Below are positions 1,233-27,078 of a stretch of 27,078 bases of DNA, in pieces (position 1 is the stretch's first letter; each line of letters begins with the position of its first letter). The stretch is taken from the IMG/VR virus record IMGVR_UViG_3300025120_000440, positions 1-27,078 of that record; one strand, written 5' to 3'. This DNA comes from a virus. The translations under genes were made by a program, and so were the position numbers. Below the pieces are notes generated by a model. That model was not told the origin of the DNA, ran no database searches, and was given only the letters and a program-made list of their open reading frames with translations.

Positions 1233-3620
1233 ATGAATATATATACTAATTCAAATAGCGCTTTTCCAAGTCAAGTAGTTAGTGATGCTGAAAAAGCAAG
1301 CATAGAGTACGGCAGTCAAGTTGCTATGGCTATTGAGTATGAATGGTTCAAGTCAGGTAGAACTAACGGTAACGCTTATTTAACCAATTGGAATAACTTT
1401 AACACATTGAGACTGTACGCTAGAGGTGAGCAGCCTGTTCAAAAATATAAAGATGAGTTGTCTATTAATGGTGATTTGTCTTATCTTAATTTAGACTGGA
1501 AACCTGTACCTATTTTATCTAAGTTTGTGGACATTGTTGTTAATGGTATATCAGCACATTCTTATGATGTTAAAGCTTATGCTCAAGATCCTGAATCTAT
1601 AAAGAAAAGAACTGAGTATGCTTCTAAGATATATGAAGACATGCTAGCTAAACAATACTTAGATAATTTAAAAACAAATCTAGGTATTGACTTATACCAA
1701 GTACCAAACCCTGATTTACTACCAGAAAGCGAAGAAGAGCTAGAGCTTCATATGCAGTTGTCATATAAGCAAAGCATAGAGATAGCTGAAGAAGAAGCTA
1801 TATCCTCTGTTATGGCTCAAAATAAATACGAGCTTACAAAACGTAGACTTAATATGGATCTAGCTGTTTGTGGTATCGCAGCTGCTAAAACAAACTTTAA
1901 CACAGCTAACGGTATTACTATTGATTACGTAGACCCAGCTTATATGGTTTATTCATATACAGAAGATCCTAACTTCGAAGACATATATTACGTAGGCGAA
2001 ATAAAGTCTATTACAATACCAGAGCTCAAAAAAGAGTTTCCAAATATATCTGAAAGAGAATTAGAGCGTATACAACAAATGCCAGGCAATAGGCAATATG
2101 TTACTGGTTGGGGTGGATACGATGAGAATACTGTACAGGTTTTATACTTTGATTACAAGACGTATCACAATCAAGTATTTAAAATTAAGAAAACAGATCA
2201 AGGTCTGTTAAAAGCTATTGAAAAGCCAGATACGTTTAATCCACCTGAAAATGATAACTTTGAAAGAGTATCAAGATCAATAGAGGTTTTATACAGCGGC
2301 GCTAAAGTATTAGGAACTGATACAATGCTTAAATGGGAACTTGCTGAAAACATGTCAAGACCTTATGCTGATACTACTAAAGTTAAAATGAATTATTCTA
2401 TATGTGCACCCAGAATGTACAAAGGTAGAATAGAAAGCTTAGTTAGCAAATGTATTGGCTTTGCTGATATGATTCAAATAACACATTTGAAGCTACAACA
2501 AGTAATGTCTAGAATAGTACCAGATGGTGTTTATTTAGATATGGACGGTTTAGCAGAGGTTGATCTAGGCAATGGCACTAACTACAACCCAGCTGAAGCG
2601 TTGAATATGTATTTCCAAACTGGTTCTATTGTAGGTAGAAGCCTAACGCAAGATGGTGAATTAAACAGAGGTAAAGTACCGATTCAAGAATTAAACTCTA
2701 GCTCTGGTCAAGGCAAAATACAAAGTCTTATAAATACATACCAGTATTACTTGCAAATGATACGTGACGTAACGGGTCTTAATGAAGCTAGAGATGGCAG
2801 TACGCCAGACAAAAGCACTTTAGTAGGTTTACAAAAAATGGCCGCTAACGCGTCTAATGTTGCTACTAGACATATCAAGCAGTCATCATCTTATTTAACT
2901 CTTAGAGTTGCAGAAAACATAGCTCTTAAAATAGCAGACGCACTAGAGTTTCCATTAACAGCTGAGTCGCTTACTAACTCTATTAGTAATTACAATGTTA
3001 ACACATTGAAAGAAGTTGTTAATTTAAATCTGCATGACTTTGGTATTTTCTTAGAGTTAGAACCAGACGATGAAGAAAAAGCTCAGTTAGAAGCTAATAT
3101 ACAAGTTGCACTGCAGCAAGGAGGTATTGATCTTGAAGATGCTATAGATTTAAGACAGATTAAAAATCTTAAATTAGCTAATCAACTATTAAAAGTTAAG
3201 CGAAAAGCCAAAGCTAAACAAGACCAAGAAAATAATCAAGCTAATATTAGAGCTCAAGCCGAGTCTCAAGCAGATGCTAATGAGAAAATTGCAATGAACG
3301 AAGTTCAGAAGCAAGAGGCTATTAGCGGATCTAAGGTTCAATATGAACAAGCTAGAACTCAAATGGAGATTCAAAAAATGCAAATTCAAGCTCAGCTTGA
3401 TCAACAAAAGATGCAAATGCAGCATCAGTTTGATATGCAATTGAAACAACTTGAAGTTCAAGGTCAATCTCAAAAAGAACAAGAAAAAGAAAATAGAAAA
3501 GACAAGCGTATAAAAATGGAAGGTACGCAACAAAGTGAAATGATAAGTCAGAGAAATAACGATGGCTTACCAATAGACTTTGAAAATCAGCCAGACGCTG
3601 GTATGAACGCGTTTATGTAA
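1233..3620 (+). CDS. Portal protein
   Basis: This is the dodecameric ring at the capsid vertex through which DNA is packaged and ejected. The call rests on position (directly after terminase, before scaffold and capsid), length (795 aa, in the range of large podovirus portals) and sequence style: an alpha-helical N-terminal region, a central region ending in DVTGLNEARDGSTPDKSTLVGLQ (nt about 2768-2840), and a C-terminal helical tail. The DVTGxNxxRDGSTP-type segment is one I recognise from portals of Bacteroidota and marine phages. Residues about 651-767 are extremely Gln/Lys/Glu/Met-rich with heptad-like spacing (many QMQ, QKM and KQ repeats), which predicts a long coiled coil, probably the portal barrel extending into the head. 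The start ATG abuts the terminase stop with no gap and has no Shine-Dalgarno sequence. Confidence 0.85.
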   Translation: MNIYTNSNSAFPSQVVSDAEKASIEYGSQVAMAIEYEWFKSGRTNGNAYLTNWNNFNTLRLYARGEQPVQKYKDELSINGDLSYLNLDWKPVPILSKFVDIVVNGISAHSYDVKAYAQDPESIKKRTEYASKIYEDMLAKQYLDNLKTNLGIDLYQVPNPDLLPESEEELELHMQLSYKQSIEIAEEEAISSVMAQNKYELTKRRLNMDLAVCGIAAAKTNFNTANGITIDYVDPAYMVYSYTEDPNFEDIYYVGEIKSITIPELKKEFPNISERELERIQQMPGNRQYVTGWGGYDENTVQVLYFDYKTYHNQVFKIKKTDQGLLKAIEKPDTFNPPENDNFERVSRSIEVLYSGAKVLGTDTMLKWELAENMSRPYADTTKVKMNYSICAPRMYKGRIESLVSKCIGFADMIQITHLKLQQVMSRIVPDGVYLDMDGLAEVDLGNGTNYNPAEALNMYFQTGSIVGRSLTQDGELNRGKVPIQELNSSSGQGKIQSLINTYQYYLQMIRDVTGLNEARDGSTPDKSTLVGLQKMAANASNVATRHIKQSSSYLTLRVAENIALKIADALEFPLTAESLTNSISNYNVNTLKEVVNLNLHDFGIFLELEPDDEEKAQLEANIQVALQQGGIDLEDAIDLRQIKNLKLANQLLKVKRKAKAKQDQENNQANIRAQAESQADANEKIAMNEVQKQEAISGSKVQYEQARTQMEIQKMQIQAQLDQQKMQMQHQFDMQLKQLEVQGQSQKEQEKENRKDKRIKMEGTQQSEMISQRNNDGLPIDFENQPDAGMNAFM

Positions 3621-7207: not shown

Positions 7208-7217
7208 AAACAAGTGA

Positions 7218-7254: not shown

Positions 7255-7269
7255 TTTAAAAAAATTAAT

Positions 7270-8028
7270 ATGGCAGTAAGCGTAAATACAGTATACCAAA
7301 CAGTCTTGTATATATTAAACAAAGAACAAAGAGGTTACGTAACTCCAGCTGAATTTAACAGTTTAGCAGTGCAGGTTCAAGATGAAATATTTAATTCTTA
7401 TTTTCCTAACGCTAATCAATTAAACAGACAAAACCAGAATAACACACAAAACGACACTGAATTTTTTAACATGTTTGAAGAGGTTTCTTATAAATTATCT
7501 TCATTTATTCAAGAAGTAAACTTAACTCTTCAACAAGATTTTTTTTATTATCCTTCAGTAGATCCTACCACAGGACAATCAAACAGAGCTCTATATAGAG
7601 TAGGAGAAGTCATATCCACGTACACAGGTCAACCTAAATATTCCTCAATTACACAACTTGTTTCTAAAACTGAATATAGTAAAATAGAGAGATCAAAACT
7701 AACCAAGCCAACCAAGCAGTATCCTATATATTATTACACAAAAGGAGCTAGCAATAGTAATTTTTTAAAAATAAGTCCTATTCCAGATTCCGCTGTCGCT
7801 AATGTCTTGTTAAAACCTTTAGATCCAGTTTGGGGATTTCAAATTGGTTCTTTAAATCAGTATGTTTATAGTCCATCTGTTTCTCAAGATTTTGAATTAG
7901 ATGTATCTGAACAATCTAATATTATAATGAGAATATTGAAATATTGTGGTGTTATAATAAATGATCCAACGATAATACAAGTTGCTGAACAAGAATCTAA
8001 AGAAGTTGAAATTAACGATAAATCTTAA
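7270..8028 (+). CDS. Head-tail connector / ring-type structural protein (252 aa)
   Basis: This is a probable neck protein linking the portal to the tail. The N-terminal segment VNTVYQTVLYILNKEQRGYV followed by TPAEFN is a pattern I recall from a small structural protein found in the neck region of many Bacteroidota and marine podovirus-like phages, including crAss-like relatives. Residues about 60-95 are helical and Asn/Gln-rich. The middle (YYPSVDPTTG, then YRVGEVIST) looks beta-rich, with a repeated short P-x-Y-Y-Y type segment. The C-terminal part contains ILKYCGVIINDPTIIQVAEQ and ends in an acidic-basic tail. It starts the tail transcription segment, 20 bases after the terminator's T-run, and is followed after only four bases by the 412-aa gene. 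Confidence 0.6.
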   Translation: MAVSVNTVYQTVLYILNKEQRGYVTPAEFNSLAVQVQDEIFNSYFPNANQLNRQNQNNTQNDTEFFNMFEEVSYKLSSFIQEVNLTLQQDFFYYPSVDPTTGQSNRALYRVGEVISTYTGQPKYSSITQLVSKTEYSKIERSKLTKPTKQYPIYYYTKGASNSNFLKISPIPDSAVANVLLKPLDPVWGFQIGSLNQYVYSPSVSQDFELDVSEQSNIIMRILKYCGVIINDPTIIQVAEQESKEVEINDKS

Positions 8029-8032
8029 ATAA

Positions 8033-9271: not shown

Positions 9272-9277
9272 AATTAA

Positions 9278-12200
9278 ATGGCTAAAGCTATAAATACGTT
9301 TTTAAGGTCTAAAATGAATAAAGACCTTGATGCCCGTTTGATACCAAATGGAGAATATAGAAATGCAGTAAACGTTCAAATAAGCAAATCAGAAGGAGAT
9401 GGTGTAGGTACAGTTGAAAATGTGTTAGGTAACACTCTTATTTTTGACTTTGAGTCTATAACAGGTGTTTCTAATTTGTACTGTATCGGATATCTATCTG
9501 ACGACGTTTCTAATACTGCTTTTGTATTTTTAACAGATAACACTACAAATGCTTATAAACCAACTGGTATTGGTTCAAATCATTTTATTTTTGCTTGTAA
9601 TCCAACTGCTAAAGACCCTGTTTTATTAGTTACTGGTCCTTTTTTAAATTTATCTCAATTAAATCCTATATATGGAATTAATTTACTAGAAGGTCTATTA
9701 TTTTGGACTGATAATAGAAATCAACCAAGAAAAATAAATATTAATTTAGCAAACCCTCAAGGAGAGATAAACACTGCCACTTATTATACAAGTGAAGATC
9801 AAATATCTATAGCTAAGTATAATCCATACAGCTGTATGCAGCTTTACAAAGAAAGCTATTTAGCCTCAGGTGATAAATATGAGTCAACAATGAAAGATGT
9901 TAGCTCTTTATTTTATCCTAATGGCGGAAAAGGAAGTGTTGCTACAAGTCAATTAACTGGACAAACTACAGTAGTTTTAAAAGCTTTTGTAGGTGACATA
10001 CAAACCTCTAATTCCTTATATGGTGGCGCCAAGGTTGGCGTAACAAACGGTTTTACAGGCGAGATAGAAACACCAGCTTCTCTAGTTGGAGCAACTGTAG
10101 ACAGTTTTAGTTTTGATCCTGCTTTAAACGAGTGGACAATAACCATAACAGGAGGAACTTTTCCAGCTTTGGAAACAAATCAAGACGTTGTTTTAAATCC
10201 AAACCCATACTATAACCCAGCTTTTCCAGGAGACGAGGATTTTTTAGAAGATAAATTTGTTAGATTTAGCTACAGATTTAAGTTTGAAGACAACGAATAT
10301 TCAGTGTTTGCACCATTTACTCAAATAGCTTTCATACCAAAGCAAGATGGCTATTTTATGTATGTAAAAGAAAATTCTTTAGGTTTAAAATCTTTTGATG
10401 ATCAAGCAGATGCTTATAGAAGTACAGTTGTTTACTTTGTTGAAAATAAAGTAGATAATATTATATTAAGAATACCACTTCCATTTGATAACTTCAACAT
10501 AAGTGATAGTCTAAAAATTAAAGAAGTAGACATACTTTATAAAGAAGCCCAGGGTTTAGCTGTAAAAGTTGTAGATACTATACCTGTTTCTGATATAGGA
10601 AACTCTGCGGGAAAATTTAAAGTAGTGAGCAACACGACAGTAGGAGGTGTTTCTCAGCTTGTAGTAAGTGATATACAAGGCGGAACGCCAGTAGGTGGTT
10701 TAGTCACTGGCTTTGGAATAAGTGGAAAACCTAAAATAGCACAATTTACACCAACAAACCCTAATAATCCTTCTAGTGGTGGAACAATAAAATTAGATTT
10801 AGAAGAAACAGGGATTATAGCCAATAGTGTTTTACAAGTAAATGAAGTAAATTATTATAATTATAACTACCAGTCAAAAAAACCATTTAAAACACTACCA
10901 GAAAATAATTTAACTAGGGTTTATGACAAAACTCCTGTAAGAGCTTTTGGTCAAGAAATATCAGGAAATAGAGTAATATATGCTAATTACCAAGATAAGC
11001 ATACTCCTCCTGAGTTTTTAAATTACAATGTTGCTGTTTCTGCTAAAAGTGATTTTGAGCTTAACAGAAAAGAAACTAGTACTACAGGTACTTTTACAGG
11101 AAAGACTATTAGTCTATCTACAGCTTCACCTGCTGTAGTGCCTGAAGTTGGTGATTTTGTTACAATTATATCTGGAACAGGGACTATACCCGCTGAAACT
11201 CAAGTAACAGAAGTAAGCGCTACGAATCCTTCAAGCTCTATATCAGTAACTCTTAATAAAGATGTTACAAACGTTACGGCGTCTGATTTACTTCTTTTTC
11301 AGCCAAGTGGAGACATACAAGACACGACGAGTATTGTAGAATATCCTAATAGTACTTTAAAACAAAATAGAAACTATCAAGTTGGTGTTGTATTATCTGA
11401 TAGATACAGTAGAACCTCGGGTGTTATACTATCTAGCAATAGATCTGTTATTAACGTAGGGTCGCAGGCTTTTTCAGGATCTACTATATACTCTGCTTAT
11501 TTAGATGAATCAGTTGTGATGCCAGGTTGGCCTGGTAATTCTTTGAAATTACTTTTCAATGAAACCATAAACTCTGTAAAAAACCCTTTAACTGGAACAC
11601 CAGGGCTTTACAATGGAGATCCTACTAGCGCGAATTATAATCCGCTAGGTTGGTATTCTTGGAAGATTGTAGTAAAACAAACAGAACAAGAGTATTATAA
11701 CGTTTACCTACCAGGAATAATGGCGGCTTATCCTGAAGATAATACTTTAGAATTAGGTAGTACATCTCACACTGTTTTAATTAATGATAACATAAATAAA
11801 GTTCCAAGAGATTTAAGCGAAGTCGGACCACAGCAAAGACAATTTAGAAGTTCTGTGCAGTTGTTTGGTAGAGTTGAAAACACTAATATCGCTATAACCT
11901 CAGCTAACACTAACATAGGAGCAGCTAATAAACCTTATTACACAGAAAATGAATCTGATACTGTTTCTATAATATCTACGCTTCAGGATTTATTTGATTA
12001 TGAACCTATTAACCCACCTAGACCTAATTATTTTCCTCAATTTTATTCTTTTGAATCAAATCCTCTTATAGCTAGAATAAGTACAGAATCTAAAATAGGT
12101 CAAGTATCAACAACTAATTACAATACAATTAGTTTTAAAATAGCATTGACTGCAACTACGGATTTAATAAGAATAAAAGATATTTCTGGAGGAGACGGCA

Positions 12201-14206: not shown

Positions 14207-14230
14207 AAAAATAATAAGTAATAATCATAA

Positions 14231-15949
14231 ATGGGAGCAGTAATAGAAATTAAATACTTTAACTCGTTTGTTTTAAACAAAACAAATAGCTCTGACGAAC
14301 CAATATGGAACGGATCTAAAGGTATACCAGCTGATATAGGCGGGTATCCTGTAATCTCTAACGCTATTACTAGCCCTGATTCTGATAGTTGGATATTAGA
14401 AGAGTCTAGAATTAGAGGTGGATATAACAATACATCTACTGACTATGGCGCTAGAGCCTACTTAGTTGAAGAAAATTCAAGTGCTTCATTTAGAATTGCT
14501 TCTATGATATACTCTGGAATATTTAATTCTAGAACAGGTATAAATAACTCTAATGTTTTTTCAGTAGCAGAAGACATAACTAAAAGCGCTAATCCAATAA
14601 AAGGATCAATACAGAGACTTTATGCTGAAAATTCTAATTTAATTATTTTTCAAGAAGAAAAAGTATCTAGAGCGTTAATAGAAAAAGATGCTATATATAG
14701 CGCTGAAGGTGGCGGTAGTATTACTAATGCTAATTTAGTTATTGGGACCATACAGCCCTACTTAGGTGAATATGGTATAAGTAAAAATCCTGAAAGTTTT
14801 GCTGTTTATGGTTATGATAAGTATTTTTCAGACAAAAATAACAATGCAATACTAAGGCTTACTAATAGTGGCATCGTAGAAATATCTGCATATGGCATGA
14901 AAGATTTCTTTAGAGATCAATTAAACTCTATTGATACCGCTAGTTCTAGTGGAATAGTATTAGGTGGTTATAATGTTTATAGCTCAGAGTATACAGTTTC
15001 ATTGCAAAAAAACCCTGTAACTCAAGCAGATGAACCGTACAGTACCACTTCTTTCGACTCTAAAGTAAATGGTTGGCCAACATTTTTCACATACCAGCCA
15101 GAGCAAATGTTTAGTATACAGAATAAATTCTATACAGTTAAATCTGGAGGTTTGTATCAGCACTATGTAACCGAGACAGCTGTTGGGTCTATTGTTAATA
15201 GAAATACTTTCTATGGAATACAAGAACCAAGTTCTATAACATTTGTTGTTAATGATCGTCCTAGTTCTTCTAAAACTTTTCAAGCTATAGGATATGAAGG
15301 TAATAGCGGATGGCAAGTTAATAGTTTTACTTCTGATTTTACAGGAAAAATAATTGATCCTAATGGATCTAGTTGGGATAAAACGTTTGATGTAACTACA
15401 CCGCCTCCACCTTTAACTGGTCCAGCTGTTAAAAGTTATTATGAAGGTGAATATGTTATTGTAAATTCTACAGCCATAACAAGTGAAGCTTCAACGAATA
15501 CCACGGTTACACTTTCTAGTTTCACTGAAACACCAGCTGTAGGGGCATTAGTAAGCGGAGTAGGTGTAAGCGACGGAACTACAGTTGTTAGTTTTGTTTT
15601 AGGAACAGGAACGCTTACTGTTAGCCAAAACTTAAATGTAACTCAATTTGAAACTTTAAGTTTTAACTTAGTAGTTAATAGATCTGGTTATAATGCTGCA
15701 TTTGGAACTACAACTCCAGCTTACCCAAAATACTATTGTGGTTTTACTATAAAAGAAAATAAATATGTTGCGAATTTAATTAACACAAGTTCAGCTAATG
15801 AAAAAGAAGTTATATTTGGACAGAGTGTTAGTGGCATAAAAGGTTTTTACTCTGATGTTACAGTAGCTACAGATACAACAACAGACCCAGGTGGTGAAAA
15901 ACAATTATTTAACGTAACTACAACATATACTTCTAATAATGGATATTAA
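14231..15949 (+). CDS. Tail protein, beta-propeller type, second nozzle component (572 aa)
   Basis: This is a probable partner of the 1642-aa protein. Segments SDSWILEESRIRGGYNN, then IYSGIFNSRTGINNSNVFS, then GSIQRLYAENSNLIIFQEEK and GEYGISKNPESFAVYGYDKY form a series I recall as a conserved tail protein in marine and Bacteroidota phages. The repeated strand patterns suggest a propeller similar to the distal part of T7 gp12. Residues about 411-482 are a copy of the beta insert module found three times in the preceding gene. The C-terminal ~90 residues are again beta-rich and lack Cys apart from one YYCGF. The gene begins 25 bases after the 1642-aa gene with an A/T-only leader. Whether the two genes were once one is discussed as a finding. 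Confidence 0.65.
   Translation: MGAVIEIKYFNSFVLNKTNSSDEPIWNGSKGIPADIGGYPVISNAITSPDSDSWILEESRIRGGYNNTSTDYGARAYLVEENSSASFRIASMIYSGIFNSRTGINNSNVFSVAEDITKSANPIKGSIQRLYAENSNLIIFQEEKVSRALIEKDAIYSAEGGGSITNANLVIGTIQPYLGEYGISKNPESFAVYGYDKYFSDKNNNAILRLTNSGIVEISAYGMKDFFRDQLNSIDTASSSGIVLGGYNVYSSEYTVSLQKNPVTQADEPYSTTSFDSKVNGWPTFFTYQPEQMFSIQNKFYTVKSGGLYQHYVTETAVGSIVNRNTFYGIQEPSSITFVVNDRPSSSKTFQAIGYEGNSGWQVNSFTSDFTGKIIDPNGSSWDKTFDVTTPPPPLTGPAVKSYYEGEYVIVNSTAITSEASTNTTVTLSSFTETPAVGALVSGVGVSDGTTVVSFVLGTGTLTVSQNLNVTQFETLSFNLVVNRSGYNAAFGTTTPAYPKYYCGFTIKENKYVANLINTSSANEKEVIFGQSVSGIKGFYSDVTVATDTTTDPGGEKQLFNVTTTYTSNNGY
15461..15676 (+). repeat. Beta-rich insert module, copy 4 (in the 572-aa tail protein)
   Basis: Residues 411-482. 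The core VGALVSGVGVSDGTTVVSFV is followed by GTGTLTVSQNLNVT and ends LSFNL, paralleling copies 2 and 3 in the neighbouring gene. Confidence 0.5.
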
Positions 15950-15967: not shown

Positions 15968-16633
15968 ATGGTAGGAGCTATAATAGGCGGCGTAGCTAGT
16001 TTAGCTGGTGGTATATTTGGGTCTAATAAGGCTAGAAGAGCAGCTAAAAGAGCTCGTAGAGAAGCTGCTAAGCTAGAAAAAAAATTAACTGAACTAGAAA
16101 AAAATCGTCAAGAAATAATTAATCCTTACGAAGGTGTTCAGGATTTAAGCTCAATGCTTAGTAATCCTTTTGCTAATTTAAGCGTAGCTACTCAAGCAGC
16201 TGAAATACAAATGGAACAAAGTGATATTGCTTTAGCTAATACTTTAGATACTATAAGAGCTACAGGCGCATCAGCAGGTGGAGCTACGGCTTTAGCTCAA
16301 GCTGCTTTACAAGCCAAAAAAGGTGTAGCAGCTAGTATTGAAGGTCAGGAAGTGGCTAATGAAAAACAAAGAGCAGCTGGTGAAGCTACATTGCAGCGTC
16401 AGCAAATGTCTGAACAACAAAGGCTACAACAAGCGGATGTTGCTGGTAGACAGTTTGTATTTGGAGCTACAGAGCAAAGAGAACAACAACAATTAGATAG
16501 AGTTTCTAATCAAATATCAGCATTAAGAGGTCAAGCTGCTTCTGCTAGTAGAGATAGCACGGCTGCTTTAACCGGCGGCATTGGAGCTGCGGCTAGTTTA
16601 CTAGGAGGAATTGGAGCAGGTTCGAATTCATAA
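15968..16633 (+). CDS. Internal virion (ejection) protein with glycine zippers, 221 aa
   Basis: This is a probable small internal head protein ejected with the DNA, analogous in position and character to T7 gp14 but not shown to be homologous. Residues 1-18 (VGAIIGGVASLAGGIFGSN) are a hydrophobic glycine-zipper segment. It is followed by a strongly basic stretch (KARRAAKRARREAAKLEKK) and a coiled coil rich in Ala/Glu/Gln up to about residue 190. The C-terminus (GGIGAAASLLGGIGAGSNS) is a second glycine-zipper segment. Such ends can insert in a membrane, and the Ala/Gln-rich middle is common in ejection proteins. The gene lies between the tail genes and two further putative internal proteins. 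No Shine-Dalgarno sequence is present; the start follows AAAAATATAAAAAA. Confidence 0.6.
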   Translation: MVGAIIGGVASLAGGIFGSNKARRAAKRARREAAKLEKKLTELEKNRQEIINPYEGVQDLSSMLSNPFANLSVATQAAEIQMEQSDIALANTLDTIRATGASAGGATALAQAALQAKKGVAASIEGQEVANEKQRAAGEATLQRQQMSEQQRLQQADVAGRQFVFGATEQREQQQLDRVSNQISALRGQAASASRDSTAALTGGIGAAASLLGGIGAGSNS

Positions 16634-16642: not shown

Positions 16643-17740
16643 ATGGAGAATAAAAACATAACATATAATCTGTCTATACAGCAAGCTAATAAAAGTAACG
16701 CGCTAGCTTACAACGAAGATTACGTTGCAGCTAACATTGACGCTTCTTTTAAAATACTAGACAATGCTTACGCCAATACAGGTAAGATGTATGCTAAACT
16801 AAAAATGGCTATACAATCAGGTAAATGTTTAGATGAAAGCTGTAATTATGAACATGAGCAAGTAAAGAGACTAGATGAAGCTCCTCAGAAGTCCATAGAG
16901 TTCTTACAACAGGTCGTAGACGAGCTTTCTGTAACAGAGGATAATTACTATGATGTTAACAACGATTACTCTTTTATGGTCGCTAATTGCATTATGACCA
17001 ATAAGCCTGGTTTTTCTAAGACAGAAGGATATAATGTTTATTTAAATCTTATGCAAGATGGTTCTCAGGAAATAGTATTTGAAGGACCTTTGTTTGAAAA
17101 GCCTTTAGTAATTAACAACAATACGCTTAGTGCTTTACTAGAATCAAATACTAGTCTTGTAGTTGAAACTCCAGATGTAAATGCAGACATGCTAAAACTA
17201 TTAGTTGATAGCGGTGTTTTAGCAGACGGATCTGCAGATGAAGAAGGCAATTTATTACCAGAAGCTTCTTTGTCTGAAGAGTTTGTTATGAAAAATGTAG
17301 ACGGATCTTTTGACTATGAAATAATAGACATAGGCGGTGGTAAAGGTAGAAACGTACTTAAATTTGATTTAGATAAAATTAAAAGAAAAGCACAGCCATT
17401 TGTAAATGCTGAAGTAGCAGGCTTGTTACAACAAGAACAAAGCGTTGTAGCTGCTTGGAACGTTTTTATTGGTCAAGGATCAAGTGTTGAAGAAGATGAT
17501 CAAATGGCACAAAATGCAAACGCAGGCAGTGTTGCTTGGGATTACAAAGAAGTATTACCTTTGTCTCAAAAAAATAAAGAATTATTTGAAAGCAAATACG
17601 GAGATTATTTTATGAATAATTACTTAAAGCAATTTACTACAAACAAGCTACCTACAGTAGGGGCAGACGCTGCTGTATTTGATTTAGCAGAAGCTAAAAA
17701 AGCTAAAGCTCAAAAGTTTATTGACGATAACCAATTATAA
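16643..17740 (+). CDS. Putative internal virion protein of unknown function (365 aa)
   Basis: I do not recognise this family. The protein is acidic and soluble, with no signal peptide or membrane segment. The N-terminal ~90 residues are helical (DASFKILDNAYANTGKMYAK) and include KCLDESCNYEHEQ, whose spaced Cys and His residues could bind metal but do not form a familiar motif. The middle (residues about 120-215) looks mixed alpha/beta. Residues about 227-238 include the glycine-rich DIGGGKGRN. The C-terminus is Ala/Lys-rich and helical. Its tight position, 10 bases before the 3008-aa gene and 9 bases after the ejection-type protein, suggests a virion-internal partner or a chaperone for the giant protein. 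That is inference from order only. Confidence 0.5.
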   Translation: MENKNITYNLSIQQANKSNALAYNEDYVAANIDASFKILDNAYANTGKMYAKLKMAIQSGKCLDESCNYEHEQVKRLDEAPQKSIEFLQQVVDELSVTEDNYYDVNNDYSFMVANCIMTNKPGFSKTEGYNVYLNLMQDGSQEIVFEGPLFEKPLVINNNTLSALLESNTSLVVETPDVNADMLKLLVDSGVLADGSADEEGNLLPEASLSEEFVMKNVDGSFDYEIIDIGGGKGRNVLKFDLDKIKRKAQPFVNAEVAGLLQQEQSVVAAWNVFIGQGSSVEEDDQMAQNANAGSVAWDYKEVLPLSQKNKELFESKYGDYFMNNYLKQFTTNKLPTVGADAAVFDLAEAKKAKAQKFIDDNQL

Positions 17741-17750: not shown

Positions 17751-20700
17751 ATGCTGTTAATAGAAAAAGTACAGGAATTACAAGCAATTCAACCTCCTCT
17801 TGATCCTACAGAAATGAACAGAAGGATTGCAGAATGGAAAAAACAAACTGGTTACAAAGCACCAGAAGCAATAGAGGTTAAAGAAGTAAAGACACAAGAC
17901 TTCCCGGAAAAGGATCCGAACGAGAAGTCGCAAAACAATACAGGGTCCGTAGTTTCAGATTCTGGAAGTGGCAAGCCGACTTTTACTTCAATGTACGACG
18001 AAGATATAGTAGCTCAAAACAGCCTTAATAAGATAAATCAAAATATAGAAAGAGGCATAATAGCAGATGCTCAAAGAGCTTTAGCTACTTCTCGAGTTTC
18101 ATTTGAAGATCCTTACGCTGGATTTGATGAGCTGATTGAAGAAGAAGGCATTGGAGAGGCTGGTAAAATTGATTTACAAAAAGCCGAAGCTGTTTTACCT
18201 GTAGTAGATAAATCAGAAAGAGTTCCAGATCAAGTTAGAAGTTTTATAGAAGCAGAGGCTTTAAGTAAAGAGCAATTTGATAGCCTGCAAAATGAGTTTT
18301 TTAATAATGAAGATTTATTTAAGCCTATTACTAGAACACGATTAGCAGAAGGCTCAGCAGGTAGTGGTATGGATATTAAAGCCGGTTTAATGACACCTGG
18401 CCTACAAGAACAATACACTGTTTATCCAAACCAAGCAGAATTAGATAAAGCTAAAAAACAACTATTAGAAAAACCTAGAAAGAAAGGCGATCCAAAGCCT
18501 ACTCAAGAAGATATAGAATATAGAGCTAGACAAAACATGTTTAACGCTAAGGCTAGAGACATTAGAATGTCTAATGCTACTGATTGGCTGTTTAATATAA
18601 CGGACCCTGAAGAAAGAGCTAAAGTAAGAGAAGAAATAGGTGGTTATATAGTTGAGAAAAAAGATAAAGCTACTTGGGAAATAGATGACTATGCTAAAGA
18701 TTTAGAATTTGATTTAAGTAAATTTAAAGAAAGTTCTCTTGTTAGTGATTTTAAAAATTACACTAAAGGCTTAAAAGAAAAACAAAAGGCTATAAAGACT
18801 CTTCAAGATAAAATTGTTGAAAAACAAAAAAAAGGTTTGCCTGTAACTGAAGATCTTTTGAAATATAGAGAAATATCTGAAAATTACAAAAACTTTGTAG
18901 GTTCTTATAATAAGCTTGGAGCTAATCTAAGAAATGAGCAAATGGATCTTGAAAATAGAGTTTCAGAATACACTGAAATGGTTTCTACTATAAAAGAATC
19001 AGAAACTCAATTAGATGCTTTAAAGAGAATTTATAACAAAACAGATAAAAGATTTACAGATTTAGGATTAGGTTTCGCTGGATTATTTTCTAATAGTACT
19101 GCTTTTTTGGAAACTGCTAGCAATTATCTTGGTGCTAAAACAATAATTTTAGACGAAGAAACTAAAACAGTAAAAGAAGCAGAGGGTTCTACATTTTTTC
19201 AAGATGTAGCTAAAAAAGTATCTAAAGCAAAAGAATTTGCTGCAGAGAAATATTACAAACCAATAACTTTTGATAAAGCTTTTAGTAGTTTAGAGAACTT
19301 TGGTGAATATGCTATAGATCAAGTTGTAGCTCAAGCACCTATATTTGCCGCAATTGCATCAGGTAATGCAGGTATGCTTGGTGTTTCTGCTGCTTCAGCT
19401 GGTGAATATCAAACCAGTAGACAGCTAGAAGCTAAACAAATTGGAGGTAGAAAATACGATAAAGATGCTGTTTTTCTTCAATCATTAGGTTTTGGAGCCG
19501 CTGAATACGCTTTTGGTGTAGCACCTACTTCTTTGATATTAAGAGGTTTTGGAAAAAGTAGTACTGAGCTTGGCAAAAGAAAATTGTTTGATGGCTGGAA
19601 AAATTACTTTAAATATGTAAAAGAAAATGGAGCCTTAGATATAGGTCTAGCAGCTGCAGATGCTTTAGGTGAAGGTTTAACCACAATAGCTCAGAACGGT
19701 ATAGATGGTAGACCATTAGGTGAAAATGTAGCAGAGTCTATTTTTTCAGGTGGGATGTTTGGTGCTACTTTTGCAGCAGCACCGTATTTTAAAGGAGCTT
19801 TTGCTGCGTCTTTAAGTGACTACAGTACAACTTCTGATTATAGAGCTAATCTTAAAATGATGCAAAGTTTACAAAACGCTATAGATTCACCGTTTACATC
19901 TAAACAAGACAAAGAGGCTTTTGAAAAACAAAGAAAAGAACTAGAAGATCAAAATAATAAAATAGTAGAAGATAGAATAAATTTAACTACTAACAACCTA
20001 AACAAGCAGGGTGGAGAGTTGCTGTCTGCTTCTATGAAACGGCAAGAAGAACTTAGAGTTCAAGCCGAGGCTTTAGATAATAATGATGCAATACCAGCTG
20101 ATCAGAAAAAAGCAATGATTAGCGCTCTTCAAAACGAATTTAATACATTAGAAGCTGGAGCAGATAAGTTTAAAAAAGCTTTTACCAACACCTTTGGTCT
20201 TTTAAAAACTACAGAGCAAAACAGATTAAAGACTGAAGCCACTAGATTACTGCAAGTTGATGGCGTTCAAGAACCGTCTGGAACTCAAATAGCTAGAAAA
20301 GCAGAGCAATTGCATGTTAAAGAAAAATTAGAAAACACTTTAAAGTCTGATAAGTCTACTTTAAAAGCAATGGCTGGAGCTGGTATAGATGTTAAATACA
20401 ATGTTTCTGACACCAACAAGCAGGCTATTGATGAGTTTACCAAAATGATGAATGCTAGAGCGGCAGACTCTAATAATAGTATTACAGAAGAGCAAGCTAA
20501 AGCGGAAATAGATAGATTTACAGAAGGAATAAAAAGTGGTAGATTAAATGGCTACAACGTGTCTTCAACTAATTTAAAAACTGGTAAAAAAGTATATGAC
20601 TCTATTACATCTGTTCAAAACTCTATAGCTAATGAAAGAAGCCAAACAAGTCTTCACGAGCTTGGACATGTTATACTAACTGAGGCTTTAGGTATTGATT

Positions 20701-23700
20701 CTGCGGCTTTTAAAGAAGGCTCAGATCTTATTCTATCTTATTTAAAAGAAGCAAACCCAGAGGCTTACACTAGAATTTCAACTAGAACAAAAGGTCAAGG
20801 CGCTGATGAAGTTTTTACTGTGTTTTTTGAAGAAGTTGCAGATGGTAAAATAAAATTAGACAAAGCAAAAGGTACAGGATTTTTAGGTTATTTAGGATCA
20901 ATGCTTGGAACAGCTACATCGCAAGCGTCAAAAACAGATTATAACTACAATTTTAAAGGAGAAACTGATATAATTAAGTTTTCTAAAGAAATAGGTAGAA
21001 AATTAAAAGATGGTACTTTAACTGTTGGTGATGTAAAAACAATACAAGAAGAAGGTTTAGCAGGAAAAACAGAAGTTCCAGTTCAAGAACTTGATGAAGT
21101 AGTTGTTACAGCTCAAGCTGCTAGTACAGAAAGCAAAGCTAGTATTGAAGTTAAAAATAGAGCTCAAGAATTAATAATAAAATCTAAGTCTGAAGAAAAA
21201 CTAACAAGAAAAGAAGAAGCAGATTTACAGACTCAATTAGAGATTTTAGCTTTAGACGCTTTAGGTTTTAAGCAAGGAAAAGGAACAGCAACCAGACAAG
21301 AAGCTTTAAGCTTTGTTAATCAATACATACCAGGCATAGTAAGAAGATTTGATCCTAAAAGAAACCTTCAAATATCTACTCTTTTATTTAGAAATATAAG
21401 TCCTAAAAAACAAAGGTTTTATGGTGAAGAATTACAACTTGAAAAAAGAGGTGTTGAATCTAGTTTAGCAGATGAAAGAGTTGGAGAATTAACTACTGAA
21501 GAAACTAAAACTGAAACAGTTGATATAGAATTAGCTAAAAAACCTAGCGAAACTACTAGGTTTAATGAAAACTATATTGATTCGGCATTTAAAGAAAACA
21601 ATGATACTAGCAAAGAGGGTATTGAAAATAAAATAACAGAAACTGTAACTGAGTCTTTTAAAGACAGACCTGTAAAAAACTTTAAAGAAACTGGTAAAAT
21701 ACCTCAAGCTTTAGCTAAATTATATGCTGACATGTTTGGTATAAAAACGGTTAATGCTTTAATAGAAAAACAAAGAAACCTTCAAAAGCTAGATGAGCCT
21801 GGAGCTATAAGGGCTAGACAGTTTTTAATTGACAATGCTGCAACTGATTTTGCTAGACTGCCTAGAGTTAAAGATGATCTTGGAAAAGCTACTGGTATAT
21901 TTCAAACAAAGTTAGGTAAAGTAATGTACAATAAAAATGGTAAACTTGTTGGTACATTAAAGCAATATAAAGATATAATACAAGGTAAAGAAATTACATT
22001 ACCAGATTACAATGGTAATGAAATTACTTTTAACGCTAGAGATGCTCAAGGTAAAAAGAAACCTATATATAGAGACTCTCAACATATAACCGCTGCTTTA
22101 GATTTTCATATTAGAAACAGAGCATTTGAAACATTAGTGCCATTACAAGGAAAAAGAGTACAGCTAGGTGCTAAATTTAGCTTAGAGACGCGTCAAGATT
22201 TAAACTGGAAGAAAACTGACGAAGATATTCAAACCACGTTTGAAGTTAAAGGAAAAAAATATACTACTAGACTAGAGGAGACTGCTTTCATGGAGTTTGA
22301 CGAAGGCCAAACTTATGATGACATTGATGATATAGCTAAAAAACTAGGTATACAAAAAGACTCTGAAGGTGACGATATATCAAGCTCTGAAAGATTTTAT
22401 CATTTACAATTTGCAGATAAGGCTGGTAAAATGGATATAACAGGAGCTGGTAATGCAGCTGAGGTATTTTCAGTTAATATAAACGGAGTTGTAGATTATT
22501 TAAAAAATAATCCTGAAATAGAAGGAGTTATATTTACAGCTAAAGAAGCTAGTAGAATTAGACTTTACAAAAGACTGGCCGAGGCTATGGCTGATAAGTT
22601 AGGTGGTACATTTGGATTTGAAAATGACACTTTTATTGTAGCTAAAAAAACAAAACCAGAAGCTAAGCTAAGCGAGGAGGTTAAAATAACACCAGCTAGT
22701 TTAAGAAAAGCAGCTTTAGCAGCTACTGGATCTCTAACTGGAGGTACGTTTAAAAACTTCACAGTTAAAGAGCTTAAAGATATGGGCTTCGAAACTGTAG
22801 CTGATGTTAAAAGAGCATTTAATCTAAACATAAGACCTGATGATAATAGACCTATAACTAGTTCAGGTTTTAAAGCTTTAGGAGGTAATGTTCAGGTAAT
22901 GACAAATGCAGTCAATGAATTCTTAAAAGAATTTCCTCAATATAGGGAAATTATAAGAAGATCTACCACTAGTTCTATGAAAAGAAATAGTATGGTTGGT
23001 GCTACTTATTTTGATAAAGTTGTACCTAAAGTAGAAGGTAAATTTGATATTATAAAAAGAGATCCATACAAAGGTAAAGATAAAAAACTTACCAAAGGTT
23101 TTGTTAAAAAGACTAACAGCAAAGACTACTTAAGAGATCAATATAGTAAGTTAAAATACCTTGAAAATTTTTGGATTGATGTTCAAAGTTATTTAAAAGA
23201 CAATAAAGATCAAGCTTTTATGTTTGAACAAATGCTAGATGATTCTCAAAACAATATGGGTAGTTTAATGCGTATATCTCCTCCTATATTATTTTTGCCA
23301 TTAAAAAATGGTAAAATAGATTTTACTAGTATTATAAGAGAAGAACATAATTTTCCAGCTAATCAAGTTGGTAGTATGTTATTAGACGCTGCCATGAAAG
23401 GTAATGTTGAAGAAGCATTTAAAGTCGTAAGCGCTGCTTATATGCAAGGACCGCTCATAATGAGTGATGATAATAAAATAGATGTTGATTTTAAAAGAAC
23501 TATGCCAGATTTTTTCTGGGATACAATGGTTCCAAGAATACTATCTGGTGATTTAAAAATACCTGAAGGATCTGCTTCTGTTATAAGACTATCGGAAGCG
23601 GGTGTTAATTTAGATAATTATTTATTTTTACCAGAAAACCAAACTTTTTCAGAATACTTTTTTGGAACAAATGGTCTACCTGTGCAAACTCAAAATGCTC

Positions 23701-26700
23701 TTCTAAAAGAATATTTCAGCGGTGAAAGTTCATTACAGCAAATAAGAGATTATGGTAAAAAAGACGCTCCAATTGTAGCCAAAGAAAACATTGTTGCTCC
23801 TATAAACAATGAAATGGCTGGCAAGCTTAGTATTGAAGGTGACAACTCTAATAACTCTATAGAAGTTGTTAAAGAGTTAAGTAATTTAGATGCCGCCGCG
23901 AGAGTTGCTAGAAAATTAAACAACCCTATTAAAAAAGCTAGAATATTTGATTTTGATGATACATTAGCTAGATCCAATAGTAAGGTTATTGTTACAATGC
24001 CTTTTTTAGAACGTGGTAGTGAAATGGCAGATATAATAGCTAGAAGATTGTTTAAAAAAGAATTTGAAAATCTACCAAGCTATAAGCAAACTTTTAACAG
24101 CTTAACAGATCAGCAACAAATAAAAGTATTACAACAAATACCTGGAGCTGTTACAGAAATAAATGCAACTCAATTTGCTGAGCAAGCTGGTGATCTTGAA
24201 GCTCAAGGCGCTACATTTGATTTTAGTCAGTTTGAAAAAGTTATTGATGGTAAAAAAGGACCTTTATTTAAAGTGGCAGAAAATATTGCTAACGCTAGAG
24301 GAACTGAAGATATATTTATATTAACCGCTCGACCACAAGCTGCAGCTGGTCCTATACAAGAATTTATGAAAGCTTTAGGTATAAATATACCTTTAGGTAA
24401 TATAACAGGTTTAGGAGATGGAAAAGCTTCAGCTAAAGGTAGATGGGTTGCTAGTAAAGCTGCAGAAGGTTATAATGATTTTTATTTTGCAGATGACGCC
24501 GTTAAAAACGTAGCAGCTGTTAAAGAGGTTTTAGATCAAGTTGATGTAAAATACAAAGTGCAAATAGCTAAAGCTAGTAAAGAAAATACTTTTAACACTA
24601 TAGTCAACGATATGATATTTGATTCTTCTGGAATTGAAACATATAAGCAATTTTCAGCTGCAAAAGCTAAAACAGTTGGTGCTAACAAAGGTAAGTATAA
24701 TTTCTTAATACCTGCATCGGCAGAAGACTTTACAGGGCTACTGTACAAAATGTTAGGTAAAGGCAAGAAAGGCGATGCTCAAATGGCTTTTCTTAAAACA
24801 AACTTGTTAGATCCATACATGAAAGCTGAAGACACCGTTGTGCAGGCTAAAATGGCTGCAGCTAATGATTTTATGGCGTTAAAGCAAGAGTTTCCAGGTT
24901 TACCTAAGACATTTAGAAAAGAAACTGGTATTGGTGGTTTTACATATCAACACGCTATAAGAACTTATATTTGGAATAAACAAGGCATGTCAATACCTGG
25001 GCTGTCTAAAGCAGATATTAGAAAATTAAGTAAGTTTGTAAAAGACAATACAGATCTTAGAGTTTTTGCAGATCAATTAATAACTTTACAAAAAGGTAAG
25101 TTATATCCTGAACCTGGTAAAGACTGGTTAGGTGGTAACTTAACTACAGATATTATTGGTGGTATAAACAAGATCAGTAGAGCAGAAGCTCAGCAAGAGT
25201 TTAGAGAGAATTTAGATATTATATTCTCACCTGAGAACTTAAGTAAAATGGAAGCTGCTTACGGTACAAGATGGCGGCGAGCTATGGAAGATAGTATACG
25301 TCGTATGAAAGCAGGTACTAATAGACCAATAGGAAGCAACCCTGTAACAGAAAAGATATTTGACTGGCTAAACAACTCAGTCGGTGCTGTAATGTTCTTA
25401 AATACAAGATCTGCATTGCTACAGACTATCTCTGCTGTAAACTTTATAAATTGGGGTGATAATAATATTGTAGCCGCAGGTAAAGCGTTTGCAAATCAGA
25501 AACAATACTGGAAAGACTTTATGTCGCTTATGAACTCTGATTATTTAGTGCAACGCCGTAATGGTCTTAAGATTAATGTAAGTGAATCTGAAATAGCAGA
25601 TGCAGTAAAAGATTCTAAAAACAAACCAAGAGCTGCTATTGCTTTCTTACTTAGCAAAGGTTTTGTTATGACAAGGTTTGCTGATAGTTTTGCTATTGCT
25701 TCTGGTGGAGCTACGTTCTATAGAAATAGAATAAAGAAGTATATTAAAGAAGGTATGGATCAAAAGCTTGCAGAAGAAAAAGCATTTGATGACTTTAGAG
25801 CATTAGCTGAAGAAAACCAGCAGTCAAGTGATCCGTCTAAAATTAGTATGCAGCAGGCATCAGCCGCAGGTCGTGTAATACTTGCTTGGGCAAATACTCC
25901 GATGCAGTATGCTAGAATACAAAAAAGATCTGCACAAGATCTTATTGCAGGTCGTGGCGACTGGAAGACTCATGTGTCTAAAATAGCTTATTACGGTTTT
26001 GTACAGAATTTAATATTCAACGCGCTGCAGCAAGCTTTATTCGCCATAGGATTTGGTGATGACGATGAAGATGAAGATCCAAAGAAAAAAGCACGTGCTG
26101 ATAAGAAAATAGCTAGAGTTGCAAACGGTATGATTGACTCACAATTAAAAGGTTTAGGTATTGCAGGTACAGCGGTTTCAGCTGTCAAGAATATGATAAT
26201 TAAGCTATACGATGAGCACGGTAAGAAAACACCTGAGTATGAAGCTGCGTCAGTTGAAGCTCTAGGATTTTCACCACCACTTAACTCTAAATATAGAAAA
26301 CTAGTAGGCGGATTAAAAAGCTTTAGCTGGAATAGAAAAGAAATGAAAGAAAAAGGCTTTAGCCTTGACAATCCAGCTTATTTAGCAGGTGCTCAGATTA
26401 TATCTGCTTTTACAAACGTGCCTGTTGATCGTGTTGTTAAAAAAGCAAACAACGTTAGAGGTTTATTAAGTAATCAAACAGAGACTTGGCAAAAGATTGC
26501 ATTAGGTTTAGGTTGGGGTACTTATGATATTGGTTTACCTTACTATGGAGGTTGGGATAAACCTAAAGATCCAACACCTGAAGAGATTAAACAACGTGAG
26601 TTTGATACAATGAAAAAAGATACTAAAACATCTGATCAAGTACAAATGCTATTAGATTTAGGTCTTGATAAAAAACAAATTAAAGCATTGCGTTATGAAG

Positions 26701-26777
26701 ACGCTAGAGTTAAAAAAATAATTGAACTACAAAATAAAAAGAAAGATGGCATCACCACTATACGGAAAGATAAGTAG
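17751..26777 (+). CDS. Giant multidomain virion protein with metallopeptidase and HAD domains (3008 aa)
   Basis: This is probably packaged in the head and delivered with the DNA. Domains seen, by residue: about 324-445, a long coiled coil; about 523-553 and 630-685, glycine/alanine-rich hydrophobic stretches (ALGEGLTTIAQNGIDG) that could enter a membrane; 969-973 HELGH, a zinc-metallopeptidase motif, with Glu 1020 or 1027 as possible third ligand; 1114-1121 LDEVVVTA, like a TonB box; about 1490-1635, a phage domain with FTAKEASRIRLYKR; about 1770-2010, a helical region with REEHNFPANQ; 2061-2265, a HAD domain (FDFDDTL, LTARP, Lys 2225/2229, FADDA); about 2320-3008, a conserved C-terminal region including GRVILAWANTPMQYARIQ and a hydrophobic segment (2744-2768) followed by an acidic patch. 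K-F/L-S segments recur at boundaries. This resembles polyvalent proteins of phages. Enzyme activities are predicted only. Confidence 0.75.
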   Translation: MLLIEKVQELQAIQPPLDPTEMNRRIAEWKKQTGYKAPEAIEVKEVKTQDFPEKDPNEKSQNNTGSVVSDSGSGKPTFTSMYDEDIVAQNSLNKINQNIERGIIADAQRALATSRVSFEDPYAGFDELIEEEGIGEAGKIDLQKAEAVLPVVDKSERVPDQVRSFIEAEALSKEQFDSLQNEFFNNEDLFKPITRTRLAEGSAGSGMDIKAGLMTPGLQEQYTVYPNQAELDKAKKQLLEKPRKKGDPKPTQEDIEYRARQNMFNAKARDIRMSNATDWLFNITDPEERAKVREEIGGYIVEKKDKATWEIDDYAKDLEFDLSKFKESSLVSDFKNYTKGLKEKQKAIKTLQDKIVEKQKKGLPVTEDLLKYREISENYKNFVGSYNKLGANLRNEQMDLENRVSEYTEMVSTIKESETQLDALKRIYNKTDKRFTDLGLGFAGLFSNSTAFLETASNYLGAKTIILDEETKTVKEAEGSTFFQDVAKKVSKAKEFAAEKYYKPITFDKAFSSLENFGEYAIDQVVAQAPIFAAIASGNAGMLGVSAASAGEYQTSRQLEAKQIGGRKYDKDAVFLQSLGFGAAEYAFGVAPTSLILRGFGKSSTELGKRKLFDGWKNYFKYVKENGALDIGLAAADALGEGLTTIAQNGIDGRPLGENVAESIFSGGMFGATFAAAPYFKGAFAASLSDYSTTSDYRANLKMMQSLQNAIDSPFTSKQDKEAFEKQRKELEDQNNKIVEDRINLTTNNLNKQGGELLSASMKRQEELRVQAEALDNNDAIPADQKKAMISALQNEFNTLEAGADKFKKAFTNTFGLLKTTEQNRLKTEATRLLQVDGVQEPSGTQIARKAEQLHVKEKLENTLKSDKSTLKAMAGAGIDVKYNVSDTNKQAIDEFTKMMNARAADSNNSITEEQAKAEIDRFTEGIKSGRLNGYNVSSTNLKTGKKVYDSITSVQNSIANERSQTSLHELGHVILTEALGIDSAAFKEGSDLILSYLKEANPEAYTRISTRTKGQGADEVFTVFFEEVADGKIKLDKAKGTGFLGYLGSMLGTATSQASKTDYNYNFKGETDIIKFSKEIGRKLKDGTLTVGDVKTIQEEGLAGKTEVPVQELDEVVVTAQAASTESKASIEVKNRAQELIIKSKSEEKLTRKEEADLQTQLEILALDALGFKQGKGTATRQEALSFVNQYIPGIVRRFDPKRNLQISTLLFRNISPKKQRFYGEELQLEKRGVESSLADERVGELTTEETKTETVDIELAKKPSETTRFNENYIDSAFKENNDTSKEGIENKITETVTESFKDRPVKNFKETGKIPQALAKLYADMFGIKTVNALIEKQRNLQKLDEPGAIRARQFLIDNAATDFARLPRVKDDLGKATGIFQTKLGKVMYNKNGKLVGTLKQYKDIIQGKEITLPDYNGNEITFNARDAQGKKKPIYRDSQHITAALDFHIRNRAFETLVPLQGKRVQLGAKFSLETRQDLNWKKTDEDIQTTFEVKGKKYTTRLEETAFMEFDEGQTYDDIDDIAKKLGIQKDSEGDDISSSERFYHLQFADKAGKMDITGAGNAAEVFSVNINGVVDYLKNNPEIEGVIFTAKEASRIRLYKRLAEAMADKLGGTFGFENDTFIVAKKTKPEAKLSEEVKITPASLRKAALAATGSLTGGTFKNFTVKELKDMGFETVADVKRAFNLNIRPDDNRPITSSGFKALGGNVQVMTNAVNEFLKEFPQYREIIRRSTTSSMKRNSMVGATYFDKVVPKVEGKFDIIKRDPYKGKDKKLTKGFVKKTNSKDYLRDQYSKLKYLENFWIDVQSYLKDNKDQAFMFEQMLDDSQNNMGSLMRISPPILFLPLKNGKIDFTSIIREEHNFPANQVGSMLLDAAMKGNVEEAFKVVSAAYMQGPLIMSDDNKIDVDFKRTMPDFFWDTMVPRILSGDLKIPEGSASVIRLSEAGVNLDNYLFLPENQTFSEYFFGTNGLPVQTQNALLKEYFSGESSLQQIRDYGKKDAPIVAKENIVAPINNEMAGKLSIEGDNSNNSIEVVKELSNLDAAARVARKLNNPIKKARIFDFDDTLARSNSKVIVTMPFLERGSEMADIIARRLFKKEFENLPSYKQTFNSLTDQQQIKVLQQIPGAVTEINATQFAEQAGDLEAQGATFDFSQFEKVIDGKKGPLFKVAENIANARGTEDIFILTARPQAAAGPIQEFMKALGINIPLGNITGLGDGKASAKGRWVASKAAEGYNDFYFADDAVKNVAAVKEVLDQVDVKYKVQIAKASKENTFNTIVNDMIFDSSGIETYKQFSAAKAKTVGANKGKYNFLIPASAEDFTGLLYKMLGKGKKGDAQMAFLKTNLLDPYMKAEDTVVQAKMAAANDFMALKQEFPGLPKTFRKETGIGGFTYQHAIRTYIWNKQGMSIPGLSKADIRKLSKFVKDNTDLRVFADQLITLQKGKLYPEPGKDWLGGNLTTDIIGGINKISRAEAQQEFRENLDIIFSPENLSKMEAAYGTRWRRAMEDSIRRMKAGTNRPIGSNPVTEKIFDWLNNSVGAVMFLNTRSALLQTISAVNFINWGDNNIVAAGKAFANQKQYWKDFMSLMNSDYLVQRRNGLKINVSESEIADAVKDSKNKPRAAIAFLLSKGFVMTRFADSFAIASGGATFYRNRIKKYIKEGMDQKLAEEKAFDDFRALAEENQQSSDPSKISMQQASAAGRVILAWANTPMQYARIQKRSAQDLIAGRGDWKTHVSKIAYYGFVQNLIFNALQQALFAIGFGDDDEDEDPKKKARADKKIARVANGMIDSQLKGLGIAGTAVSAVKNMIIKLYDEHGKKTPEYEAASVEALGFSPPLNSKYRKLVGGLKSFSWNRKEMKEKGFSLDNPAYLAGAQIISAFTNVPVDRVVKKANNVRGLLSNQTETWQKIALGLGWGTYDIGLPYYGGWDKPKDPTPEEIKQREFDTMKKDTKTSDQVQMLLDLGLDKKQIKALRYEDARVKKIIELQNKKKDGITTIRKDK

Positions 26778-26901
26778 CGCTTGTAAAGCTGCAGCAAAAA
26801 GAAAATTTAAGGTTTGGCCTAGTGCTTATGCTTCAGGTTGGGGCGTAAGATGTACTAAAGCTGGTGGACCTAGTAACTTCGGAGGTAAAAAGAAAAAGTA
26901 A
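26746..26901 (+). CDS. Small basic protein with a KVWPSAYASG motif (51 aa)
   Basis: It is encoded in another frame, overlapping the 3' end of the giant gene by 32 bases. The product is very basic, with two Cys residues. It contains KFKVWPSAYASGWGVRCTKA and ends GGKKKK. Short basic proteins with a K-V-W/F-P-S-A-Y-A-x-G core recur, as I remember it, in marine phages and some large eukaryotic viruses, with no established function. Nucleic-acid binding or DNA condensation in the head would suit the charge. The ATG at 26746 follows an A-rich stretch and is the only ATG before the motif. The next gene's ATG overlaps its stop (TAATG). Confidence 0.7.
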   Translation: MASPLYGKISSACKAAAKRKFKVWPSAYASGWGVRCTKAGGPSNFGGKKKK

Positions 26902-27078
26902 TGGCTTATTCACAAAAAACACCTATGATGCATTGTGCTGCTACAGTTATGCACTCAAAACCTTGGAATAAAATGCGCAATAGAACTGCTGCTGTTTCTG
27001 GTAGAGGAGATGGTAACAAAGTAGGTTTAGCTCATGCAGAAGAAAAAAGATCTCCACTTAATAAACAAAAAGGTGGTG
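26901..27078 (+). CDS. Small protein of unknown function, cut by the right window edge
   Basis: The frame opens with the ATG overlapping the previous stop (TAATG at 26899-26903) and stays open for 59 codons to the edge. The visible part is basic and Met/His/Cys-containing at the N-terminus (MAYSQKTPMMHCAATVMHSK), followed by a Gly/Arg-rich, probably flexible stretch (VSGRGDGNKVG) and KRSPLNKQKGG. I do not recognise it. Start-stop overlap suggests translational coupling with the 51-aa protein. It is too small and too partial for a functional call. Confidence 0.55.
   Translation, partial: MAYSQKTPMMHCAATVMHSKPWNKMRNRTAAVSGRGDGNKVGLAHAEEKRSPLNKQKGG

Follow-up and report, generated by a model that had tools for sequence, protein, structure and literature searches.

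A cysteine-free giant protein with conserved peptidase and HAD-hydrolase motifs as a probable tail-ejected protein of short-tailed phages

RESULTS AND DISCUSSION

A 27,078-base IMG/VR virus record, cut at both ends and here called the window, contains one uninterrupted reading frame of 3008 codons (17751..26777; this and all further features of the window are on the + strand), which starts with ATG, has no internal stop, as originally predicted, and encodes a giant protein without a single cysteine. We consider it likely that this protein (the giant) is packaged in the virion and ejected through the tail of a short-tailed Bacteroidota phage, as a protein of the large polyvalent type that occupies the gene slot of the N4 virion RNA polymerase (vRNAP). 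Since the absence of cysteine is a mark of tail-ejected proteins, the giant is most likely a multi-enzyme package delivered by injection, comparable to the giant virion polymerase of N4 except that no polymerase is recognisable in it.

Genomic context and host

The phage was placed by its portal protein (1233..3620), which is closest to that of the uncultured podovirus MW202828 (51% identity), followed by those of Maribacter phage Panino (44%), the Flavobacterium elemoviruses (42%) and Cellulophaga phi38:1 (33%, Pervagoviridae), with phi18:3 (Pachyviridae) at ~27% in a wider listing. Given this relatedness to Panino, the elemoviruses and the Cellulophaga phages, the host is very likely a member of Bacteroidota. 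From the portal to the giant, the genes follow the order found in phi38:1 and N4, and the last gene of N4 encodes the ejected vRNAP. The gene for the giant closes the structural operon, after the pilot-like gene orf221, and the predicted location behind ejection-type genes was thus borne out. The product of orf221 (15968..16633) resembles a pilot/ejection protein, with Gly-rich hydrophobic ends and a Gln/Ala-rich helix. Between it and the giant lies orf365 (16643..17740), with a weak PHROG match to an Alt-like RNA polymerase ADP-ribosyltransferase (E 0.009). Further upstream, orf572 (14231..15949) encodes a tail protein with the C-terminal domain of the crassvirus muzzle (PF25729, 41.9 bits, cut-off 27), and at the level of this profile match the domain links window-type flavophages to the crassvirus tail tip. 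Within 9278-15949, PHROG 14478 is matched by two ORFs, of 1642 and 572 aa; in elemovirus, this virion protein of 1474 aa is encoded by a single gene.

Cysteine exclusion in the giant and in ejected proteins

For the giant alone, the Poisson probability of finding no cysteine in 3008 residues is ~5e-10. Cysteine is also absent from 67 of 70 long relatives, and it makes up 0.0043% of the residues in the family, versus 0.715% across 679 further ORFs from these loci. All 68 homologues of orf221 are cysteine-free as well (0 in 17,084 residues). None of the 15 homologues of orf365 is, though its gene sits between two cysteine-free genes; because the cysteine content of orf365 is normal (0.76%), its product is, by this rule, probably not ejected. 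Among known ejected proteins, N4 gp50, gp51 and gp52 and T7 gp15 and gp16 have no cysteine, and crAss001 gp46, gp47, gp49 and gp50 have 0, 1, 1 and 3, respectively; the DNA and RNA polymerases and the muzzle/tail proteins of these control phages have 10-12. When ORFs were ranked by cysteine deficit, the top positions were taken by gp50 and gp51 in N4, by gp16 and gp15 in T7, and by gp47, gp50, gp49 and gp46 in crAss001. The counterpart of the giant came first in phi38:1, phi18:3, elemo, Panino and MW202828, and also in Gundel_1, where two stretches were read and it led its own stretch. A counter-example is DarB of P1, a head-packaged defence protein of a contractile-tailed phage, which has 9 cysteines; the exclusion is therefore strong in short-tailed phages and not universal.

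N4-like vRNAPs without cysteine have been reported, and this was tied to their passage through tail and periplasm (PMC2784036, PMC3715699). For the giant family, the exclusion is a new observation, which the original prediction had missed. A broader reading, which we put forward tentatively, is that the exclusion of cysteine marks tail ejection in short-tailed phages of Gram-negatives in general, readable from sequence alone, and that the giants are injected polyproteins in which a zincin releases a HAD phosphatase effector unlisted for polyvalent proteins. If this holds, the cysteine count would tell which proteins any uncultured podovirus ejects (in the window, the giant and the orf221 product, and not that of orf365), as a cheap listing for uncultured phages of what is otherwise a question for proteomics.

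Domain layout and relatives of the giant

A scan of viral contigs yielded 79 loci with relatives of the giant. Iterated profiles matched 33 ORFs for HYD (residues 500-760, including elemo gp18), 58 for PEP (925-1170), 57 for MID (1790-1960), 62 for HAD (2045-2285) and 82 for CORE (2286-2960). The C-terminal CORE is the constant part of the family, nearly always together with a HExxH peptidase, and everything N-terminal of CORE varies, with the reservation that the constancy of CORE comes in part from scan patterns that favoured it. All of the motifs named beforehand were found in the frame (HELGH at 969-973, SRIRLY at 1601, DFDDT at 2067, LTARP at 2191 and FADD at 2246). The N-terminal region (residues 1-480; 17751..19190) is charged and poorly conserved, with profile matches in only 2-11 loci, and is possibly a leader or packaging part. 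The MID domain (23118..23630) carries EEHNFP at 1864.

That the architecture is an assembly artefact, i.e., a chimera of unrelated genes, has a negligible probability: the frame is broken in two relatives (L010, at 12700-12830, and L083, at 9368-13418), but independent contigs refute such an origin, and 64 long relatives from separate metagenomes, complete at both ends, show peptidase-(HAD)-CORE in this order within a single frame. The C-terminal parts of the two broken giants are 91-95% identical to the window, and the break in L010 falls between HAD and CORE; the breaks are either sequencing errors or true splits. Contig L064 carries two diverged giants on opposite strands (2595-12947 and 19286-22822), which may reflect a true duplication, an inversion or the joining of two phages during assembly. 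In MW202828.1 (L002), the contig with the closest portal, the same slot holds a giant of 3859 aa (741-12320) with two HExxH motifs and one cysteine and without a detectable sequence match to the giant of the window. Judging from these sequences, the gene slot is kept and the protein replaced.

The HYD domain (19248..20030), Gly/Ala-rich and helical, is common to the giants of cultured flavobacterial phages, its HMM matching elemo gp18 (7e-58), phi38:1 gp101 (1.7e-19), phi18:3 gp123 (5.5e-18, 55 bits) and Panino CDS69 (3e-12). Of the glycine-rich hydrophobic segments of "membrane type" that had been proposed, the composition stood (up to 35% Gly/Ala per 60 residues, conserved) and the membrane character, judged by hydropathy, did not: the best 19-residue hydropathy mean of the giant is 1.39, which is under the transmembrane range and lower than the maxima that shuffled copies reach (1.77 on average), and relatives reach at most 1.65-1.71. 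Besides HYD, the four cultured-phage proteins share with the giant its slot and the lack of cysteine. The elemo protein also matches the peptidase profile (2.3e-10); none of the four shows HAD or CORE, and those of phi38:1, phi18:3 and Panino are also without HExxH. Virion evidence comes from a counterpart, phi18:3 gp123, the cysteine-free product of the last gene of the corresponding operon, which is annotated as "structural protein" from experimental MS/MS; HYD is all that it has in common with the giant, as it is without peptidase, HAD and CORE.

A zincin-type metallopeptidase domain

Residues 930-1170 (20538..21260; profile from 925) were assigned to a zincin-type metallopeptidase (PEP), based on the conserved HExxH and downstream Glu and on a structural model. 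The zinc-binding motif HELGH (969-973; 20655..20669) is conserved in relatives: HExxH, with a chance expectation of 0.0025 per protein of the giant's composition, is present in 66 of 71 long relatives. In 45 aligned peptidase segments, most of them at 13-48% identity, E970, H973 and E1020 (20808..20810; the putative third zinc ligand) are invariant and H969 is kept in at least 90%. The metallopeptidase motif that had been claimed is thus well above chance. In an AlphaFold2 model of residues 480-1195 (mean pLDDT 73.6, the peptidase domain mostly >90), two strands (934-941 and 947-954) are followed by the HELGH helix (966-980), and E1020 lies on a later helix (1018-1030). This is the order of zincins described for polyvalent proteins, with strands, the HExxH helix and Glu on the following helix, in which the zincin is the commonest hub domain (PMC5512222). 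Against curated families, no match exceeded the cut-off (weak M78 matches only, in 4 of 52 relatives); the domain had no sequence match in the PDB and no significant one by Foldseek.

Because the zincin is nearly universal while the passenger modules change, auto-processing seems the likelier role for it than action on host proteins. The latter, with the peptidase itself being the effector that cuts, for example, defence proteins of the host and does not process the giant, is in our view unlikely. It would agree with a near-universal HExxH amid surroundings that have diverged to 13-27% identity in most aligned segments, as expected of an arms-race effector, and with the pN/pS to the nearest full-length relative, which reaches 0.36 in the peptidase and only 0.04 in HAD. 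However, a self-processing protease that co-evolves with its own cut sites predicts the same pattern.

A HAD-type hydrolase domain

The HAD-type hydrolase (residues 2045-2285; 23883..24605) was assigned by its conserved motif set. It comprises motif I DFDDT (2067-2071, with D2067, D2069 and T2071; 23949..23963), motif II with T2192 in LTARP (24324..24326), motif III with K2229 (24435..24437) and motif IV with D2248-D2249 in FADD (24492..24497). The motif set had been described as complete, and indeed none of the four motifs (DFDDT, LTAR, AK and FxDD) varies among the 40 carriers that were aligned. The pN/pS of this domain to the nearest full-length relative (L005) is 0.039, the lowest among all regions. 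In the model, strands alternate with helices and the motifs lie at strand ends, with strand 2062-2066 before motif I, strand 2188-2192 ending at motif II and strand 2243-2247 before motif IV. By its motifs, the domain is a HAD-superfamily hydrolase. The model matched PDB entries including SERCA, ATP7B, acid phosphatase, PSP and LNS2, all of them weakly (E 0.07-5), the curated profile PF00702 scored 20.5 bits, below its cut-off of 26.4, and PDB searches with the HAD, peptidase and whole-model profiles returned nothing significant; the match of the HAD profile to baculovirus Ac109 was discarded as chance.

The profile phrog_415, labelled polynucleotide kinase, matches 31 of the 40 HAD carriers (best 3.9e-8). 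A T4 Pnkp-type 3'-phosphatase, as suggested by the labels of phrog_415 and phrog_3970, was considered but is not supported: in hhalign, T4 PseT aligned over motif I only, with a probability of 44%, and the crAss001 protein with the same label, gp61, is the kinase half.

The conservation of the HAD active site also bears on a different role of the peptidase, in which it would act before or during assembly like a head maturation protease, the rest of the giant being an inert internal structural protein and no effector being injected. Such a scheme has a precedent in DdrB of P1, which is processed before packaging (PMC5512222), and the MS/MS of phi18:3 gp123 shows virion presence only. Nevertheless, we regard it as improbable, given that an inert protein does not readily account for a fully conserved active site and that cysteine exclusion fits ejected proteins and not the portal, tail and orf365 proteins encoded alongside them.

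Exchangeable modules

Of 68 relatives, 55 carry HAD and 13 lack it, with at least 3 state changes on the CORE tree; HAD is therefore not essential to the basic function. The spacing between MID and CORE is 78-133 residues without HAD and at least 275 with it; as far as these sequences tell, HAD is a clean unit of exchange in the family. L005, which is the closest relative of full length, lacks the segment with the SR..LY module (residues 1477-1640, SRIRLY at 1601-1606; 22179..22670). The module was found in 5 of 68 relatives, with 4 changes on the CORE tree and differently placed in different proteins, and tblastn found none in named phages. An infection "toolkit" had been proposed for the domain set of the giant. 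Peptidase and HAD are joined in one chain, as this idea had it, but since HAD and SR..LY are optional, the set in the window is one of several and no fixed toolkit.

The CORE domain and the RNA polymerase reading

The family-defining CORE (residues 2286-2960; 24606..26630) is all-helical according to the model, and had no match in Pfam, PHROG, NCBIfam or PDB. In the model of residues 1775-2965 (mean pLDDT 78.3), everything C-terminal of HAD is helical. Foldseek of this MID-HAD-CORE model against viral models retrieved four unnamed members of the family (A0A218MMX7, A0A218ML07, A0A218MLT5 and A0A7S9STY3 (Virus NIOZ-UU157)), with 28-40% identity over most of the model, which from their sequences belong to the giant's family, already deposited without function. 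One of these four UniProt entries carries the name "UDP-N-acetylglucosamine kinase". Remote matches, at 10-13% identity, were a structural protein of Tenacibaculum phage Gundel_1 (2e-9) and many giants annotated as LPD/PolyVal (E 1e-7 to 1e-4), the latter in agreement with the proposed closeness to large polyvalent proteins. Since the comparison was between multi-domain chains, the Foldseek matches have moderate TM-scores (0.2-0.4).

The giant could also be an N4-like vRNAP with motifs diverged beyond recognition. Its slot and size are those of N4 gp50, it is cysteine-free like the N4 vRNAP, and the giants of StenR_269 and Zobellviridae were called putative vRNAPs on like grounds, namely size, helicity and cysteine absence (PMC10747016). 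Moreover, 14 related contigs of 56-77 kb yielded no T7-type RNAP, although this is a weak test, as PF00940 detects the N4 vRNAP itself only marginally (E 0.007). Even so, we consider this reading very improbable: CORE is predicted to be all-helical, without the palm strands that polymerases need, it has no invariant His able to form motif C, and neither sequence nor fold searches of the PDB matched an RNAP (with models covering residues 480-1195 and 1775-2965). A candidate motif B, R961-K965-Y973YG in A2 numbering, resembles RxxxKxxxxxxxYG but was rejected, K965 not being conserved and the core being all-helical. With a core that lacks strands and conserved motif residues, the N4-vRNAP reading therefore fails. 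Cysteine absence, used in print for vRNAP calls (PMC10747016), would then indicate ejection rather than polymerase function.

Comparison with known systems

The closest systems differ from the giant in distinct parts. The N4 vRNAP (gp50, 3500 aa) is like it in gene slot, size, single chain and zero cysteines, and also has an MPTase domain (PMC5512222); unlike it, the giant shows no RNAP motif or palm-like fold and has HAD and a different helical core. Large polyvalent proteins, for which delivery with the DNA is predicted, combine a zincin MPTase and other catalytic modules in one chain (PMC5512222), as does the giant. These proteins are defined by at least two domains of disparate activity in one polypeptide, and in the giant both the peptidase and the HAD motif sets are conserved. 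In contrast to the catalogued ones, LPD, ART, methylase and ParB modules were not recognised in it (the Pfam LPD models gave no match), such catalogued domains being optional in the class, and a HAD phosphatase is absent from the main text of the polyvalent-protein paper (PMC5512222). The cargo proteins gp45-gp50 of phi-crAss001, encoded after the muzzle gene, are packed and ejected and have few or no cysteines, like the giant; this cargo includes RNAP subunits, and the likeness is one without a sequence or fold match.

Proposed course of infection

Taken as an ejected package, the giant would be packed in the head, where the all-helical C-terminal CORE may hold it. At infection it would be threaded, unfolded, through tail and envelope together with the orf221 product, either ahead of the DNA or along with it. 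The Gly/Ala-rich HYD domain may help to form or pass a conduit across the envelope. Selection against disulfides, in an oxidising periplasm or during transit, could be what removed all cysteines. The zincin, with its conserved catalytic residues, would cut the giant chain, most likely its own, and release parts. The released HAD, joined in certain relatives by SR..LY or further modules, would then work in the cytoplasm as infection begins, the HAD substrate being perhaps, and quite tentatively, a nucleotide or nucleic-acid phosphate. For the "giant unknown protein" of many marine Bacteroidota phages, this turns a label into a testable statement (packed, ejected, protease-bearing and modular), with the conserved CORE as the region on which work on packaging and ejection should centre.

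A bacterial or prophage origin of the family was considered and rejected. In genome collections, CORE occurs only on 13 MAG contigs (L088-L100), mostly short and with mixed host names (Aliivibrio, Woesearchaeota, Ilumatobacteraceae and others), and these are probably binned phage contigs that contaminate the MAGs. Finally, a short ORF 3' of the giant (~26780-26905) codes for a small peptide of basic character (..FKVWPSAYASGWGVRCTKAGG..), and similar peptides occur in other marine phages.
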